Positions 6,155 to 13,113 of a stretch of 64,000 bases of DNA are shown piece after piece. This stretch comes from Daejeonella sp. Its GTDB lineage: Bacteria; Bacteroidota; Bacteroidia; Sphingobacteriales; Sphingobacteriaceae. A model generated the notes under the pieces. That model had not been told where the DNA came from. It saw only the letters and a list, made by a program, of their open reading frames with translations, and did no database searches. The stretch's first letter is position 1. Each line of letters starts with the position of its first letter. The stretch is from assembly GCF_030695525.1 (NCBI RefSeq), contig NZ_JAUYSS010000048.1:1-64000 (forward strand), in the 5' to 3' direction. The position numbers and the translations under genes were made by a program.

Positions 6155-6209
6155 TGAGTATAAATGGTGAGTCGTCATTTTCATTGGGCGAACTGAAAAT
6201 TAAGATGTT

Positions 6210-8393
6210 ATGAGAAAAGTTCTGAGTTTGATCATTCTAACTATTTTTGTTGGATTGTCATCCTGCAAAAAGGAGAATAATGCGGTTGAAGGCACTGTGA
6301 GTAATATGAGTGATCTCAAAGTCCCTGTGGGTTTTACCTGGGAGAATTCAAAGGATATTTATTTCGATATTACAATAACTGATGCGAGGTTTAATGATGC
6401 TTTGCACGTGGTATCCATATATGATGCGGATCCGGCATTAAACGGAAAGCTGCTTTCCAAAGGTTCTGCTTCTTTGAAATTACCATTTACAACAAAAGTC
6501 TATTTACCGAATACGGTGAAGGAGGTTTTTGTGGTCAAAACTGCACCTGATAATACAAGCAGTATGCAAAAGGTGGCAATTTCCGGACTTAAATTAAGTG
6601 TTCAGTTAAGTTCCACACTTAAGGCTGATCTTAATACACTTGCCGGTACGAATACCCTTGCCGGAATCGATGATAGTCCGACTTGCACTACTGGCTGTAC
6701 ACAAACAATCACCACATCTAATACAAATATTAATGTAAATAACGGCGATTTAATATGTATAACCGGAAGTAATATTACCGTGGGTTTTAATGGAAATGGC
6801 GGAACAATAAGAATTTGCGGCACAAATGTAACTGTACAAAATGCATCTTTAAATAATAGTGCTTTATTAATCATTACCAAAACCGGTTCGGCAACTTTCA
6901 ACAATCTTAATATGAATGGCTCAAACAGCACATTTATTAATTATGGAACTGCGACTGTTAATGGGTCTTTTTCACCAGGAGGTTCTTTTACGAATGAAAA
7001 CACATTCAGCACAACTGGTGATTTTAGTCTGAACTCGAATTCTAATTTTATGAATCATGGAATTATGAATGTGGGTGGAACAATGAATGTGAATACAGTT
7101 AATGTAACTTCTAATAATGGGTCAATCACAACTGCTCAAAATTTTCAGTTAAATGAAAATAGTCATTTTGTCAATAATTGTTTTTTATGGGTAAAGGCAA
7201 ATTATAATCATAATAATAATTCAATTTTAAAGAACTATAGCCTGATAAAAGTAAACAACACAACTACCTTAAATGGTAGTAGCGGAGAGCTGGCTCTTTA
7301 CAATGGGGCTATGCTTAGAACCACTAATTTGACCATCAATAATAAGATAAAAGGTTATGGTACGACATCATTAGTAAAAGTTTCAGCTAATACTACCATC
7401 AATAGCGGAAAGATAGAAAATGCCATTCAGTTTTGTGATCTGAATGGGATTGAAACCAATAATAATGCGCAGTTCACAGGAGGGGCCGTTCAGGCTTGCA
7501 CCTTGTATATTCCGGTAACGAACTGTAATACCGAAGGAAATGGTACAGCGCCACCGGCTGATTCTGATGGTGATGGGGTAATGGATGCACTTGACGAGTA
7601 TCCGAATGATCCGACTAAGGCTTATAATAATTATTATCCGTCGTCTTCGCCAAGTTCAGGAGCAACCGTGGCTTTTGAAGACCAATGGCCAGTTAAAGGG
7701 GATTACGATTTGAATGATGTGGTGGTATCTTATCGTTATAAAATTGTGACGAACGCTCAGAATAGGGTTGTTCAGGTAAATGGCGACTATACTCTTCATG
7801 CCACAGGCTCAGGTTATGAAACGGGTTTTGGTGTAGAATTTCCAACATTGCGATCAAGTGTAAGTGGAGTTAGCGGTGGAATACTTGAGGCCGGGCAAAC
7901 TAAAGCGGTAATAAAAATATTTAATGATATACGGGATGAAATGCAAGAGTGGAATACTCTTCCAGGGAAGCCTGTTTCTCCACTAAAAAATTACTCGGTA
8001 AGTTTTAATGTAAGTAACGGCCCTGCACTAAATACCTTTGGTCTAGGCTCTTATAATCCATTTATTTGGAATGGCGGACTTGGAAATGGGCGAAATCATG
8101 AAATTCATCTACCCGGGAAAACGCCAACAAGTTTAGGTACTACCTCTCTTTTTGGAACCGGAGATGACAACTCAAGTGTTTCTGCAGCTAGATATTATGT
8201 CACAAGCACTGGTTTGCCATGGGCAATTGATATCCCAATTAAACCGTTTAATTACCCGGTAGAATACATGAACATTACAGGTGGTTATCTTAAGTTTCAG
8301 GCATGGGCAGAATCAGGAGGCACACAGTTTGTAGATTGGTATTCCAATACCCAATCAGGTTACCGGAATAATGGGAATCTATTCCTGCCCTAA
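6210..8393 (+). CDS. LruC-domain surface lipoprotein
   Basis: 727 residues. The signal peptide ends in the lipobox LSSC, with Cys19 as the lipidation site. Residues about 150-440 are rich in Asn, Ser and Thr with short recurring strands (FINYGTATVNGSF, FMNHGIMNVGG, FVNNCFLWVK), which looks like a beta-helix or autotransporter-like stalk. A calcium-binding thrombospondin-type motif DSDGDGVMDALDEYPNDP starts near residue 451 and is followed by the LruC/DUF4842 domain (FEDQWPVKGDYDLNDVVV and the remainder). LruC-domain proteins are known from Leptospira and are common in Bacteroidota, but the function is poorly known. It follows the T9SS block in the same direction after an 82-bp gap. Confidence 0.85.
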   Translation: MRKVLSLIILTIFVGLSSCKKENNAVEGTVSNMSDLKVPVGFTWENSKDIYFDITITDARFNDALHVVSIYDADPALNGKLLSKGSASLKLPFTTKVYLPNTVKEVFVVKTAPDNTSSMQKVAISGLKLSVQLSSTLKADLNTLAGTNTLAGIDDSPTCTTGCTQTITTSNTNINVNNGDLICITGSNITVGFNGNGGTIRICGTNVTVQNASLNNSALLIITKTGSATFNNLNMNGSNSTFINYGTATVNGSFSPGGSFTNENTFSTTGDFSLNSNSNFMNHGIMNVGGTMNVNTVNVTSNNGSITTAQNFQLNENSHFVNNCFLWVKANYNHNNNSILKNYSLIKVNNTTTLNGSSGELALYNGAMLRTTNLTINNKIKGYGTTSLVKVSANTTINSGKIENAIQFCDLNGIETNNNAQFTGGAVQACTLYIPVTNCNTEGNGTAPPADSDGDGVMDALDEYPNDPTKAYNNYYPSSSPSSGATVAFEDQWPVKGDYDLNDVVVSYRYKIVTNAQNRVVQVNGDYTLHATGSGYETGFGVEFPTLRSSVSGVSGGILEAGQTKAVIKIFNDIRDEMQEWNTLPGKPVSPLKNYSVSFNVSNGPALNTFGLGSYNPFIWNGGLGNGRNHEIHLPGKTPTSLGTTSLFGTGDDNSSVSAARYYVTSTGLPWAIDIPIKPFNYPVEYMNITGGYLKFQAWAESGGTQFVDWYSNTQSGYRNNGNLFLP

Positions 8394-8479
8394 TTTACTC
8401 AGTTGAAACGCTCAGAATAAGCTCAGATTTTGGTAATCCTTATCTTCTTTGAATTATTCTTTGATAATAATCCTAACCT

Positions 8480-8947
8480 ATGAAATTCTTTAGATCCTGG
8501 CGGTTTAAATGGGCAATTAACCAAATCTTCACAGAAGCCAACAACAGGTTCTTGTTTCACCCTGGAAGTATTGGCTTGCCCTGATTTTAAAATTCTTTCC
8601 GGAGATTTACGATGGCCCAATCATGTTAAAGCTGAAAGCCAGAAGCAATGAATTTATTACCATTGATATAGAGGGAATTTCTGAATTAATCAGGAACCTT
8701 AACAATAAACGCATCCATTTAATTAAAATGGATTGTGAAGGAGCTGAATATGAAATAATCAAAGCGCTTGATGTAGGTTTGGTTTCTGAAATTGAAATCA
8801 TTCTGTTTGAGTCTACTGAGAGTGTTTATGATCTCAGTGAACTACTTGATCACCTTCGCTCGATTGGATTTAGTATTGAATTTAAAGAGAACAGCTGCAA
8901 CTACATTGCCCGGAATCTGAAATTTGTCGCTTCAAAGCTGATTCCCC
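8480..8947 (+). pseudogene. Broken FkbM-family methyltransferase
   Basis: An ATG at 8480 opens a frame reading MKFFRSWRFKWAINQIFTEA that stops at 8584. The story resumes in another frame: from about 8584 it reads ALILKFFPEIYDGPIMLKLK, then FITIDIEGISELI and IKMDCEGAEYEII, the last being the signature of FkbM (Methyltransf_21). The SAM-binding first half expected between these parts is absent, so I infer a frameshift near 8580 plus an internal deletion near 8635. A 143-residue open frame starting at 8623 continues to 9054, but from about 8948 it reads through REP-like repeat DNA. It lies next to the RAYT gene and at the edge of the polysaccharide locus, and is probably a relic of that locus. 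Confidence 0.7.
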
Positions 8948-9066
8948 GACTTGCGAAATCACCTATGCGAGCGGAAAGTAGATTTCGTCAGTCGCATACT
9001 ACATGGATATTAATGAAGCGACTTACGAATTTATCTTGGATGATGCCTAAGTAAAATTCGTAAGTC
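8948..9066. repeat. REP-like hairpin pair upstream of the RAYT gene
   Basis: Hairpin one spans 8948-8993: GACTTGCGAAATC pairs with GATTTCGTCAGTC. Hairpin two spans 9020-9066: GACTTACGAATTTA pairs with TAAAATTCGTAAGTC. Both have imperfect stems of about 13-14 bp and loops of about 18 nt. They are the left copies of the family found at 9666-9941. Confidence 0.8.
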
Positions 9067-9146
9067 TGAATACTCCTACCGTTAACTAAGTTTTTCCTTT
9101 TACTTCCTTAATTTTTATAATGTTTGAAAAATAAAATATTATAAAT

Positions 9147-9671
9147 ATGCCTAACAATTATGATGGAGGTTATTATCATCTGTTCAATCGGGGTAATAAC
9201 AAAGAAAAGATTTTCTTAGAAATAAGTGATTATAACTATTTTCTGAAACAATTCTATAAATATTTGGCTCCTCATATTGATGTTTTTGCATATTGTTTAA
9301 TGCCTAATCACTTCCACTTTTTCATTAGAATAAACGATAGTTCCAGATTTGACATAGGGATTAAGAACTTTCTTATCTCATATTCCAAAACAATTAATAA
9401 AAAGTATGGAAGAGTTGGTTCTCTTTTTCAAGGAACATATAAGCTATCAGAAATAAAAACCAATACCTATTTTACACGAATTATAACTTATATCCACCAA
9501 AATCCCTTGGTTGCGGGATTGTCAAAATCAATGGAGGAATATCGATTCTCATCGTACAAGGCATATTTGTTAAATGAAAAAACCAGTCTAAAAAAAGAGG
9601 AGGTTTTAGAATGGTTTGGGGGAATTAACAGCTTCATTGAGGCACATAAGTTGATAATTAAAGGTGACTGA
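9147..9671 (+). CDS. REP-associated tyrosine transposase (RAYT, Y1/IS200-like)
   Basis: 174 residues, full length for a RAYT. An early HLFNRGNN segment and the HUH-type metal site in YCLMPNHFHFF (about residues 49-59) mark the Y1 transposase fold. The catalytic Tyr is probably within YSKTINKKYGRVGSLFQGTYK. RAYTs are single-copy, domesticated relatives of IS200/IS605 transposases that nick and spread REP palindromes. REP-like hairpins lie on both sides, and the first right-hand hairpin overlaps the stop codon. The leader just upstream is very AT-rich and has no clear ribosome-binding site. Confidence 0.9.
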   Translation: MPNNYDGGYYHLFNRGNNKEKIFLEISDYNYFLKQFYKYLAPHIDVFAYCLMPNHFHFFIRINDSSRFDIGIKNFLISYSKTINKKYGRVGSLFQGTYKLSEIKTNTYFTRIITYIHQNPLVAGLSKSMEEYRFSSYKAYLLNEKTSLKKEEVLEWFGGINSFIEAHKLIIKGD

Positions 9672-9941
9672 CGAATTTATCTTGCATAACGCCTAAGTAA
9701 ATTCGCAAGTCTGAAATCCCGACTTGCGAAATCACTAACCGAGCGGAAAGTAGATTTCGTCAGTCACATACTAATTGGGCGACTGACGAATTTATCTTGC
9801 ATGACGCCTATGTAAATTCGCAAGTCAGATTCCCCGACTCGCGAAATCACCTAACCGATCTGAAAGTAGATTTCGCCTTCGCTTGTTAATTGGGCGACTG
9901 ACGAATTTATCTTGCATGACGCCTATGTAAATTCGCAAGTC
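9666..9941. repeat. REP-like hairpin array downstream of the RAYT gene
   Basis: Five units: 9666-9711, 9721-9765, 9781-9826, a degenerate copy near 9836-9885, and 9896-9941. Units of type 1 (GACTGACGAATTTA ... TAAATTCGCAAGTC) alternate with units of type 2 (GACTTGCGAAATC ... GATTTCGTCAGTC). Type 2 is roughly type 1 in inverted orientation, so the array is BIME-like. The stem foot is asymmetric (GACTGACG against GACTTGCG), as in REPs recognised by RAYTs. This fills the gap between the RAYT gene and the flippase gene. Confidence 0.85.
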
Positions 9942-9970
9942 AGATTTCCTGTTAAACGAACCCACCTTAA

Positions 9971-11302
9971 TCACGATCCTTTCAGGTATTTCCTGAAGAA
10001 TTCAGGATAGAATTGCCAGGCATAAATAAACGTATTCCTGATACTCACATTCAGTTCTTTCTTCAGGATACTTTGACCGATGAAAAAACCGATGATATGC
10101 GCCGCCAGGGTGGCATAGGCAGCCCCGAGTACCCCAAATCTGCTGATGAAAATATAGTTTAATCCTATATTTATAGAGGTAACCACCAATACCACAAAAA
10201 ATGTCAGCCGGGTTTTCCCTATGGAGTCCAGTATATTCCCAAATTGCCTGCCATAAGGAGTAAAAAGGCAGTAAAGTAGCGTAATATGAAGCAGTGGAAT
10301 AGTATCCTTATAGTTTGTGCCGGCAACCAGTGTGACAACAAAATCCGAAAACAGGTAAAGAAATATAATCCCCGGAATCAGCAATGCGATCAGGGTTCCC
10401 ACTGATTTCTCATACAGGTACTTAATGCCAACTTTTCCTTCGGTCACCATACGCTTTGCACTTTGAGGAAAGACAATTACTGCAACTGCATTGGTTGGTA
10501 TGTCGAGCAGATTAGTGATTCTGACAGCCACATTAAAAGCACCTGCCTGAACAGGCGAAAGAATTGCCCCCAGCATCATCTGGTCAACAGTAACCGAAAG
10601 AATAGAACTTACTGAGGTTCCAAAAGCATATTTCCCGTAATTAAATAACTTTCTAATCCAGTCGGTATAGATTCTAAAAGAAATGGATAGATAGGGTCTG
10701 ACCAGGAAAAAAGATATAAGTGTCCCCGTAAGGTTGGTGCCTATCTGTACATAGACCAGATCGATGAGGTTGATATTGAGATTGTAAAAATAACAAATAG
10801 CCACATAAGAAAAGAAACCCAATTGCATGATGAAAGAGCTCAGAAAAATGCTTCTGAATTTGAGGTTCGCCTGAAGAATACAGTTAAATTGGGTCAGTAT
10901 ACCAGAAATGACAAAGGTTATACAATAGGTATTGAAGATTTTAACCAGTTCGGGAGCTTTCCAAATTGCTGAAAGAATGCTTCCAAATCCAAGAATGAAC
11001 ATGATGCAAATCAGACTTAGAATTCCACTGATAGTGAATGAGGCTGCTGTAATCTTATGATGCTCACTTTTATCCTCGGCTGCAATGAACCTGATCAATG
11101 CGTTTTGAAGCAGTCCTCCTCTGACGGTCTCTATGATCGTGGTAGTTACCATGAATAGTACCCAAACCCCGTAATCATTTGGCCCCAGAATTCTAAGTAG
11201 TATATAAAAACTTCCTATACTAAAAAAAACGCCGGATAGATTCTGTAGCAGTGAAAAAAAACCTGCTCTGATCCAGTAAAGATCCTTATTGAAGATCTTC
11301 AT
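9971..11302 (-). CDS. Wzx-type oligosaccharide flippase
   Basis: 443 residues with about 12-14 hydrophobic segments spread over the whole length, matching the polysaccharide biosynthesis/MATE-like flippase family (start IFNKDLYWIRAGFFSLLQN, then repeated small-residue-rich helices). It would flip undecaprenyl-linked repeat units across the inner membrane. The start ATG shares a base with the upstream gene's stop (TAATG at 11300-11304), which indicates translational coupling. It is the last gene of a GT2 / two-domain GT / flippase group and the only Wzx candidate for the locus. Confidence 0.85.
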   Translation of the reverse strand: MKIFNKDLYWIRAGFFSLLQNLSGVFFSIGSFYILLRILGPNDYGVWVLFMVTTTIIETVRGGLLQNALIRFIAAEDKSEHHKITAASFTISGILSLICIMFILGFGSILSAIWKAPELVKIFNTYCITFVISGILTQFNCILQANLKFRSIFLSSFIMQLGFFSYVAICYFYNLNINLIDLVYVQIGTNLTGTLISFFLVRPYLSISFRIYTDWIRKLFNYGKYAFGTSVSSILSVTVDQMMLGAILSPVQAGAFNVAVRITNLLDIPTNAVAVIVFPQSAKRMVTEGKVGIKYLYEKSVGTLIALLIPGIIFLYLFSDFVVTLVAGTNYKDTIPLLHITLLYCLFTPYGRQFGNILDSIGKTRLTFFVVLVVTSINIGLNYIFISRFGVLGAAYATLAAHIIGFFIGQSILKKELNVSIRNTFIYAWQFYPEFFRKYLKGS

Positions 11303-13113
11303 TACCGGGATTGGGGTTTTTCAACATACAGGTAAGTATCAATATGCTTGAACAGTTCATCATCGCTTTTTGCATGGTAGATTATTGCACCTGAAAGTTT
11401 TGGGTATAGTTTCTGATAACATTTAAAATGATGTTCAGGGCCTTTTTTTGAAAGGATCAGGTTTATACCTCCAAAATAACTTGCCAGAGTTGCTGTTCCC
11501 CCATGGGTTGAAATAAAATGGCTGGCATTTGCATAAACCATCAGTTGCAGATGATTGAAGTTAGTTGCATTGGCCTTATTTTCGTTAAATAAAGTTTCCA
11601 TAAGGATGACCTCCGGATGTTCCTCCTCAAGCCATTCAAATTCATGAAGGTCATAAATTACACTATCATCGACTGTAATATTTTGTGATCTCGGGCGATT
11701 ATAGATGATTGTATATTGGTCTCTTAGCCTTTTAATGATTTTGTCCAGTACAGGAATACTGAGGAAGCTGACAGGAACATCATCCCATTCCATATTATAA
11801 CGGTTTGCAATAATCAGGATTGGTTTATCATACACGTAAATTGTATTCTGATAGGTTTGTTTAAATGGCACCTTTTCCCATTTTTTAATATTGTAATCCT
11901 GGCTGTAGAGTATACGGGGGATTTCGAAATTGTAATTTCCTTCATTTGAGCGTTCTTCAAATGCCTCTTCATGATCCCTTGAAAAAAAGTATAACTCTTT
12001 AGAATATTTTGATGAACGTGTTTTATCCAGTGTGCCATTTTTAAAATGCCAGTAAGCGAATGGAAGGACGAACTGTAATTCAGGAGCAAATTCGCCATTG
12101 AACGAAATGGTTTTATAGTTCTTGCGGATAAAAAAATCCTTGACCAAATACCTTAGTTGGACAATCTGACAATAATAAGTATCCTTATAAAATTGCATGT
12201 ACTCTCTGGAAACACCTGAATACCTGATTCTGACATAAAGACTCAAAAACTTATTTAGTACTGCCTTGGAAAGGTCAATAAAACTGTTGCTTTCTTTTCT
12301 GAGTTTTGCAATATCTGATTGGATAGCAAAACCATGGCTGGTTCTAAGAAAACGGAGGTCATAATTATACCTGAATTGGCGATAGATATCTCTGACAAAT
12401 TTTATCAGGGGATTTTTGCTCAGCGTCAATGTCCCCCGAATTGTTGTACTTGGCTCTTCCTCCGGATTTATTTGTTTGAACAGGCTCTTGTATTCGTTAT
12501 AGAAAAGTCCTTTGCCCCTCTGCTGGAGAAAGGCTATACACATTCGGTACTCAGAACGGTCAACACTCACCTGCTCAGTGTAAGGACCGAATTTTTCAAT
12601 AAAATTTGATCTTCTCAAGTGTGGATGGTCACTGTAAAAATAGATTTTACGGTAATTTAATGACCAGGGTTTATAGTGCATTTGAGAAAAACCTTTTTCA
12701 AACGGAACGAGATGCGGGTATTTGATATAGGAATAAAAGCGGATGATATCCAGATCTTTATTTTTCTCTATGATTTCCAGTGCATCTTTAAACGGCTCCC
12801 CAAAAGTGGGTAGAGGTACGAAATCTTCCTGAACGTAGAGTGTATAGGGTAATGTAACCGCAGCTTGCCCTTTATTGATATTATTCCCCAGCCCACTATT
12901 AACTTCAGTTGTAACCAGTTTAAAATCAAAGTGGCTTTGAAGTTCTTTGATAGCATCCAAATGTTCGTCTAAACTTCCATCATCTGAAACAATAATTTCT
13001 TCAAAATTGTATTTAAGGTCTCTGCAGGTTTGCAGTAGACGCTCGAGTGAGCTGCTGCGATTATAATGGGTAATGAGTAAACTGACGTCTTTAAAAAAGT
13101 AGTCTGAAGTCAT
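11302..13113 (-). CDS. Two-domain glycosyltransferase: GT2 plus C-terminal GT-B-like domain
   Basis: 603 residues, about twice a single GT2. Residues 1-300 carry a GT-A fold: VSLLITHYNR, VSDDGS (acidic pair at 44-45) and YVQEDF (95-97) in place of the usual DxD. Residues about 410-603 look like a separate domain of another type, with ILIIANRYNMEW, a predicted Rossmann-like half, and ISTHGGTATLASYFGG near residue 545, recalling nucleotide-binding loops of GT61-like or other GT-B enzymes. The middle is basic and Tyr-rich. It is coupled to the flippase downstream and lies 24 bp after the next GT2. The identity of the C-terminal domain is uncertain. Confidence 0.75.
   Translation of the reverse strand: MTSDYFFKDVSLLITHYNRSSSLERLLQTCRDLKYNFEEIIVSDDGSLDEHLDAIKELQSHFDFKLVTTEVNSGLGNNINKGQAAVTLPYTLYVQEDFVPLPTFGEPFKDALEIIEKNKDLDIIRFYSYIKYPHLVPFEKGFSQMHYKPWSLNYRKIYFYSDHPHLRRSNFIEKFGPYTEQVSVDRSEYRMCIAFLQQRGKGLFYNEYKSLFKQINPEEEPSTTIRGTLTLSKNPLIKFVRDIYRQFRYNYDLRFLRTSHGFAIQSDIAKLRKESNSFIDLSKAVLNKFLSLYVRIRYSGVSREYMQFYKDTYYCQIVQLRYLVKDFFIRKNYKTISFNGEFAPELQFVLPFAYWHFKNGTLDKTRSSKYSKELYFFSRDHEEAFEERSNEGNYNFEIPRILYSQDYNIKKWEKVPFKQTYQNTIYVYDKPILIIANRYNMEWDDVPVSFLSIPVLDKIIKRLRDQYTIIYNRPRSQNITVDDSVIYDLHEFEWLEEEHPEVILMETLFNENKANATNFNHLQLMVYANASHFISTHGGTATLASYFGGINLILSKKGPEHHFKCYQKLYPKLSGAIIYHAKSDDELFKHIDTYLYVEKPQSR

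Follow-up and report, generated by a model that had tools for sequence, protein, structure and literature searches.

A probable REPtron in Daejeonella whose RAYT gene occupies different repeat sites in two sister species

Introduction

Does a RAYT gene keep its place among the repeats that surround it? In the sections of three papers that treat their inheritance, RAYTs are single-copy, vertically inherited genes without evidence of mobility (PMC8049555, PMC3116915, PMC6006769), and they appear incapable of self-mobilization (PMC3116915). Their distribution among species is nonetheless patchy, which makes it hard to say how they spread. A Daejeonella genome in which seven palindromes crowd around a RAYT gene raises the question anew. 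The locus lies in the window, by which we mean the whole 64,000-nt stretch analyzed (contig NZ_JAUYSS010000048.1, positions 1 to 64,000). Throughout, G000 is the window's own genome (4.2 Mb), G019 is a sister species, and G009 and G004 are relatives in the genus; C denotes a contig and L a locus. Sister species that carry the RAYT at reciprocal repeat sites make the question of spread testable within one genus.

Results

Between 8948 and 9941, a 174-aa RAYT gene is surrounded by seven copies of an imperfect palindrome of 46 nt, and these units belong to two subfamilies, A and B. Upstream of the gene the order is A-B: an A unit on the minus strand (8948-8993, found by arm search and covariance model) precedes a 47-nt B unit on the plus strand (9020-9066). 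A leader of 80 nt (9067-9146, plus strand), conserved in the G019 RAYT module by alignment, runs from this B unit to the start of the RAYT (9147-9671, plus strand). Downstream, the order is B-A-B-A-B with a period of 115. The first of these B units (9666-9711, plus) overlaps the end of the RAYT and, starting at 9666, supplies its TGA stop; the G019 RAYT has a B unit at the equivalent position. Together with the unit at 9020-9066, it forms a direct B repeat bracketing the gene. It is followed by a 45-nt A unit (9721-9765, minus), a B unit (9781-9826, plus), an A unit with one degenerate end (9836-9881, minus; model match 9836-9880), and a B unit identical to the one at 9781-9826 (9896-9941, plus). 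Every A unit in the window is on the minus strand and every B unit on the plus strand. Arms are exact in six of the seven units, the exception being the unit at 9836, and an arm search of the 64-kb window found no eighth. These coordinates bear out the sequence-only reading, which had described seven hairpin units of two inverted types, a full-length RAYT inside them, and one unit over its stop codon; the two inverted types are A and B, on opposite strands in the window.

To the left of the site lies the tail of a decayed FkbM methyltransferase gene (8710-8947, plus), orthologous to G019 C49 and G009 C7. A 143-aa ORF at 8623-9054 represents this tail and is overlapped by both units that precede the RAYT. 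To the right is a polysaccharide flippase gene (9971-11302, minus), whose orthologous flank in G019 C49 and G009 C7 is 82-85% identical. The FkbM gene at 8484-8947 lacks an inner stretch, its version on G019 C49 being longer, and an LruC-domain gene at 6210-8393 is absent from the corresponding place in G019.

The gene encodes a RAYT/TnpA_REP-like HUH-Y1 protein, with NHFH as its HUH motif and YIHQNP as its Y motif. It matches Pfam PF01797 (Y1_Tnp) at 35.2 bits, above the cut-off of 23, and NCBIfam NF047646 (REP_Tyr_transpos) at 57 bits, below a cut-off of 80 that is a curated naming threshold rather than a defining biological feature. A structure model built with 28 aligned sequences has a mean pLDDT of 93.3, and its best fold match in the PDB is 4er8, the E. 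coli RAYT in complex with a REP hairpin (E 2.7e-8), followed by the IS608, IS200, and ISDra2 transposases. By sequence, the PDB gave a single unrelated weak match (a capsid protein, E 0.21). In an alignment of relatives, the HUH, Y, and SS residues are invariant or nearly so, S135-S136 being invariant. The distance from H57 to Y115 is 58 residues, and the corresponding stretch is longer in the more distant relatives L017, L020, and L022; the window RAYT has an FQ motif where two Pedobacter relatives have WQ. G000 and G019 each carry one copy, their other Y1 genes being diverged paralogues, and on this count a multi-copy insertion sequence was rejected. Two further RAYT-like Y1 genes in G000, L017 (C10) and L018 (C19:96758), are 38% and 37% identical to the window RAYT, and each is flanked by a palindrome family of its own, unrelated in sequence to the window units.

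Are the hairpins found only at this locus? When up to 3 mismatches are allowed, a symmetric arm pattern matches 39 places across the 4.2 Mb of G000, and the reversed-pattern control matches 0, so chance origin is excluded; a purely local array was likewise rejected. A covariance model was then made from 32 of the 39 places, leaving out 3 exact duplicates, 3 near-duplicates, and 1 misaligned copy. It returned 106 rows on G000 with both palindrome strands counted. With second strands removed, there are at least 63 units at E<0.01 and two more at 0.02, among the best 150 of 2064 candidates scored. Nearly all (62/65) are intergenic, compared with 15% for 46-nt places drawn at random from the same stretches (simple ORF caller), and the other three are window units that overlap the ends of the RAYT and the decayed FkbM ORF. 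Genes flanking the units are convergent, divergent, and co-directional alike. The hairpins do recur genome-wide between genes, so the check for confinement to this locus came out negative.

All units can be read in a common orientation, with GACTGACG at the left end and CGYAAGTC at the right. The inner stem is CGAAATC/GATTTCG in subfamily A and CGAATTTA/TAAATTCG in subfamily B; in both, 4 outer pairs are followed by a two-base internal loop and then by 7-8 inner pairs, which close a loop of about 18 nt. The consensus ends are GACT...AGTC in A and B alike. The 5' GT[AG]G foot of canonical REPs, the recognition element of E. coli-type RAYTs, is absent, and CGTC lies inside the unit arm. In the inner stem, 93.2% of cells are paired, and 30 cells are changed on both sides between A and B, compared with 13.2 ± 3.6 after shuffling; the pairs with double changes (2) are no more numerous than in shuffles. 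Compensation supports pairing, yet the A/B difference behind it may amount to one or two events.

Units are mostly joined as inverted A/B heterodimers. This holds for 73 of the 75 close junctions (≤60 nt) in G000 and G019 together: all 49 junctions with left ends facing are A/B, as are all 24 with right ends facing. The junctions cannot be counted as independent events, since duplication enlarges the arrays and many sites were inherited from a common ancestor. The 26 junctions of G000 (19 left-facing, 7 right-facing) are all A/B. G019 has 49, counted with 3 of its 89 units left out as they have no sequence: 30 left-facing and 17 right-facing A/B junctions and 2 tandem same-type pairs. Spacings are mostly 14-17 and 9-11 nt. 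Solitary units account for 22/65 in G000 and 20/86 in G019. One three-unit cluster (A+B-A+) occurs twice, 1.24 kb apart, at G000 C14:84537-85956 (L109), with near-identical units, a local duplication.

Within the genus, 12 of 20 genomes contain matches to the covariance model (E ≤ 0.001), G004 and G018 with a single weak match each; the 21 genomes taken from elsewhere in the family and class contain none. Single-sequence and nine-sequence profile searches found an orthologue of the window RAYT in just 2 of the 20 genus genomes, G000 and G019, the latter 79% identical, and detected none in 8 of the 10 genomes whose repeats are clear. A 56% relative is present outside the family, in G038, with palindromes of another sequence. 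The sequence-only reading had suggested checking whether the hairpins are restricted to genomes with this RAYT: restriction to the genus stands, but most genomes with clear repeats lack a detected orthologue. Assembly breaks within arrays may explain this. In G000, 10 of 65 units lie <500 nt from a contig end, in sequence that makes up about 1.7% of the assembly, and a dimer stands at the same position at the start of three G009 contigs. With repeats so frequent at contig ends, an assembly can easily miss a RAYT that lies between arrays. Decay of the repeats after RAYT loss is unsupported, as the top model scores in G002, G008, G009, and G016, where no RAYT was detected, equal those of G000.

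Beyond the genus, we scanned named genomes for RAYTs and considered the best 80 of 562 loci. The closest RAYTs among the matches listed are from Mucilaginibacter (62-67%) and Pedobacter (58-59%), and RAYTs 58-67% identical to that of the window carry palindromes with a common ACTTACGAA arm, as in the window units. The Mucilaginibacter form is AGACTTACGAAGTTTT-TAA-..., and two Pedobacter have a long-loop form. Exact arms recur genome-wide in all six of these genomes counted (30, 25, 69, 5, 5, and 12 copies; control 0). By these likenesses, the repeats are matched in sequence to this RAYT clade. At 41 of the 72 loci with enough flank (best 80 of 562), the RAYT stands between matching palindromes, compared with 0/65 for windows displaced by 1200 nt. 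In 29 of 46 palindromes (the 41 bracketed loci and 5 loci cut by contig ends, again from the best 80 of 562), one half folds into a hairpin of its own, at least 4 pairs closing a 3-nt loop, whereas about 1.2 are expected by shuffling. Many have a nested shape in common, in which a short centre separates two small hairpins with 3-nt loops in inverted orientation, and by inspection this inner dyad seems to have been lost from the window units. In Adhaeribacter soli (L150:3191-3223) and Niabella ginsengisoli (L151:3179-3211), the RAYT match itself contains a 33-nt palindrome of the flanking type, like the palindromes inside RAYT genes already in print for subclass 2.4.

Is the RAYT at the same place in related genomes? 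With window positions 6200-13100 as the query, a genus search found the locus in G019 (C49, 82-85%) and in G009 (C7), between FkbM and flippase genes. Neither carries a RAYT there: G019 C49 has four units in the order A-B-A-B, and G009 C7 has four degenerate units and about 900 nt of other DNA. The G019 RAYT sits at another locus, C63, whose right flank has orthologues at G000 C19:14808-20039 (85%) and on G009 C61 (91%); the sites on G000 C19 and G009 C61 hold one B/A pair each and no more. The left flank of the G000 C19 site maps to G019 C15, which ends in an eight-unit array; the last 136 nt of C15 are the start of C63, and one flank of the G019 RAYT is joined solely through this exact overlap. 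In G004, the same two genes as at the G000 C19 site flank an intergenic stretch without units. A profile search found no RAYT match at G019 C49 or at G000 C19:14.7 kb.

In these two sister species, then, the RAYT stands at different repeat sites, accompanied each time by an A-B pair on its upstream side and a B unit on its downstream side. Both copies have a module of A, B (degenerate in G019), leader, RAYT, and B in common, and the RAYT has the same orientation relative to array polarity at both sites. Misassembly at the window junctions is unlikely because the flanking units have no exact match elsewhere in G000, the best being 94% over 48 nt for the left junction and 88% for the right. A second RAYT family (C10, L017), also flanked by repeats, is at an unchanged locus in G000, G009, G011, and G004.

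The repeat sites themselves are old, being stable in position between species and variable in unit number. Of the 37 repeat clusters in G000, 27 map to a unit-bearing place in G019, a count that includes the two of the RAYT itself, one of which is mapped only through the RAYT. Nine others have no mapped flank, with G019 repeat loci as targets, and one maps to a place without units. Sites differ in unit number between G000 and G019, e.g., 2 vs 6 and 1 vs 4. An apparent rearrangement between these genomes, or an assembly error, has its breakpoints at REP units (G000 C1:7556-7663 and C2:31157-31318): C1-left is joined to C2-right in G019 C26, and C1-right to C2-left in G019 C4 (L104, L105 vs L142, L235).

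Discussion

We consider it very likely that the locus is a REPtron of a Bacteroidota bacterium, i.e., a RAYT (from the TnpA_REP class of HUH nucleases, which act on single-stranded DNA) together with the REP family cognate to it. The sequence-only reading had named a REP-RAYT system, and the RAYT fold and the matched, genome-wide intergenic repeats agree with that name. In keeping with RAYT/TnpA_REP (class 2 TnpA_Y1) proteins, the gene has HUH and Y1 motifs in a Y1-transposase fold, flanking REPs dispersed in the genome, and a single copy per genome, and inverted pairs at regular spacing (73/75 junctions) are what defines a REPIN or BIME. As in the E. coli REPtron, the fold is that of 4er8, inverted pairs of two subfamilies flank the gene, and the repeats are intergenic genome-wide; in contrast to it, the units have no GTAG foot, a longer loop of 18 nt, and a two-base internal loop near the foot, and the window-type RAYT is not at a fixed locus (compared with the E. 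coli system as described in PMC6006769 and PMC8266576). Pseudomonas REPINs are likewise commonly inverted doublets with a minority of singlets, but their doublets are typically of identical type, whereas nearly all here are A/B heterodimers (Bertels and Rainey 2011, PMC3116915). CGTC REPs have Bacteroidetes among their hosts, and heterodimers are common in some families (Di Nocera et al. 2013, PMC3733652). However, the account given there has an unpaired terminal CGTC tag and no dedicated transposase; with CGTC internal to the arm and a RAYT present, this class was rejected.

What is already known of such systems in this phylum? The sequence-only reading had placed a REP-RAYT system outside the Proteobacteria. 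A Bacteroidota system is indeed present here, but the class is already in print: Quentin et al. (2018, PMC6006769) describe subclass 2.6 (Bertels group 5) as mostly from Bacteroidetes, with "atypical secondary structures." Its reported features are a length of about 180 aa, a Y motif YIH[QN]NP, and SS after the core, compared with 174 aa, YIHQNP, and S135-S136 in the window RAYT; the flanking atypical structures without GT[AG]G and their further copies elsewhere in the genome also agree (PMC6006769). The same paper gives subclass 2.6 a 21-aa insertion with a median HUH-Y distance of 82, NH[LIV]H, and WQ, whereas the window RAYT has 58, NHFH, and FQ. From its motifs, we regard it as a candidate member of subclass 2.6, which the Y motif, tail, and length fit and the HUH-Y distance, NH[LIV]H, and WQ do not. 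In a search of the literature on Bacteroidetes RAYTs, supplements apart, neither these repeats nor relocation of a RAYT came up outside the papers cited, and a text search for the palindrome arms returned only unrelated matches among those listed. Bacteroidota RAYTs with atypical REPs are known; the repeat anatomy and the reciprocal empty sites are new. The bracketing palindromes (41 loci, from the best 80 of 562) constitute a catalogue of concrete candidate substrates for the little-described Bacteroidota RAYTs.

How might the system work? Judging from known RAYTs and work in E. coli (PMC8266576), the RAYT would recognize folded units on single-stranded DNA and cut and rejoin them. The A/B pair would be the working unit, equivalent to a REPIN or BIME, and local array growth would be the usual product of RAYT action. 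With less certainty, a RAYT cassette with direct B repeats (B-RAYT-B) could change site by exchange at B units, driven either by RAYT action or by homologous recombination.

The relocation case, with two RAYT-bearing genomes (G000 and G019), suggests that the RAYT gene itself changes place among its repeats. Could the RAYT be mobile in its own right? By analogy with the circle of IS608, the RAYT and one B unit might form a cassette that uses B units both to exit from the genome and to insert into it, with REPs as both substrate and docking sites. We put this forward tentatively, as possible but on the unlikely side. Mobility of this kind predicts B-RAYT-B direct repeats, reciprocal empty sites with repeats only, and the same orientation to array polarity, all of which are seen, and direct B repeats on both sides would fit integration of a one-B circle, by the RAYT or by recombination. 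Such mobility, if real, would contradict the published picture of RAYTs as immobile genes. Another account leaves the RAYT protein no part: homologous recombination between REP arrays, or foreign DNA integrated through repeat homology, moved the gene. We find this plausible, if slightly short of probable. Near-identical array units of 115-118 bp flank both RAYT loci, breakpoints of the G000/G019 rearrangement lie at REP units, and the RAYT DNA is 78-83% identical vs 82-85% for the flanks. Yet the units are short (46 nt) and diverged, and so poor RecA-type substrates, and the second RAYT of the genus, repeat-flanked too, is at one locus in four genomes. It is also conceivable that nothing moved recently, and that ancestral copies at both loci were lost differently in each lineage. 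REP units at both loci in three species are what such loss would leave, and RAYT loss from REP-bearing genomes is discussed in PMC6006769. However, the scheme requires that the gene was duplicated and that G009, too, lost it at both loci; RAYTs usually occur once per genome, and neither empty site in G019 or G000 gave a RAYT match. We judge it decidedly unlikely.

Two further readings concern what the locus is. An active IS200/IS605-type insertion sequence with ends that are REP-like by accident would have the same HUH-Y1 fold and chemistry as IS608 and ISDra2 and would likewise lie between hairpins; the direct B repeats that bracket the RAYT recall the end hairpins of IS608, which are like-oriented. 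But such elements are multicopy, whereas there is one RAYT per genome against at least 63 repeats, and the closest fold is a RAYT, not an IS transposase. The Y motif is YIHQNP rather than the class 1 Y[IV]ENQ given in PMC6006769, and we judge this reading very improbable. We give scarcely any credence to ordinary terminators or mRNA 3' stabilizers that accumulated near the gene: nearly all units do lie between genes and are possibly transcribed, but they form a sequence-specific family with an asymmetric consensus, A/B heterodimers, and RAYT-matched palindromes across the phylum, and their flanking genes have no preferred direction.

RAYT-like genes also turned up in a different setting. On G031 C36 (L021:450-2448, L041:1462-3100), one is placed between cas1 (PF01867) and cas2 (PF09827), with another directly ahead of cas1, so that two HUH genes are woven into a CRISPR adaptation module.
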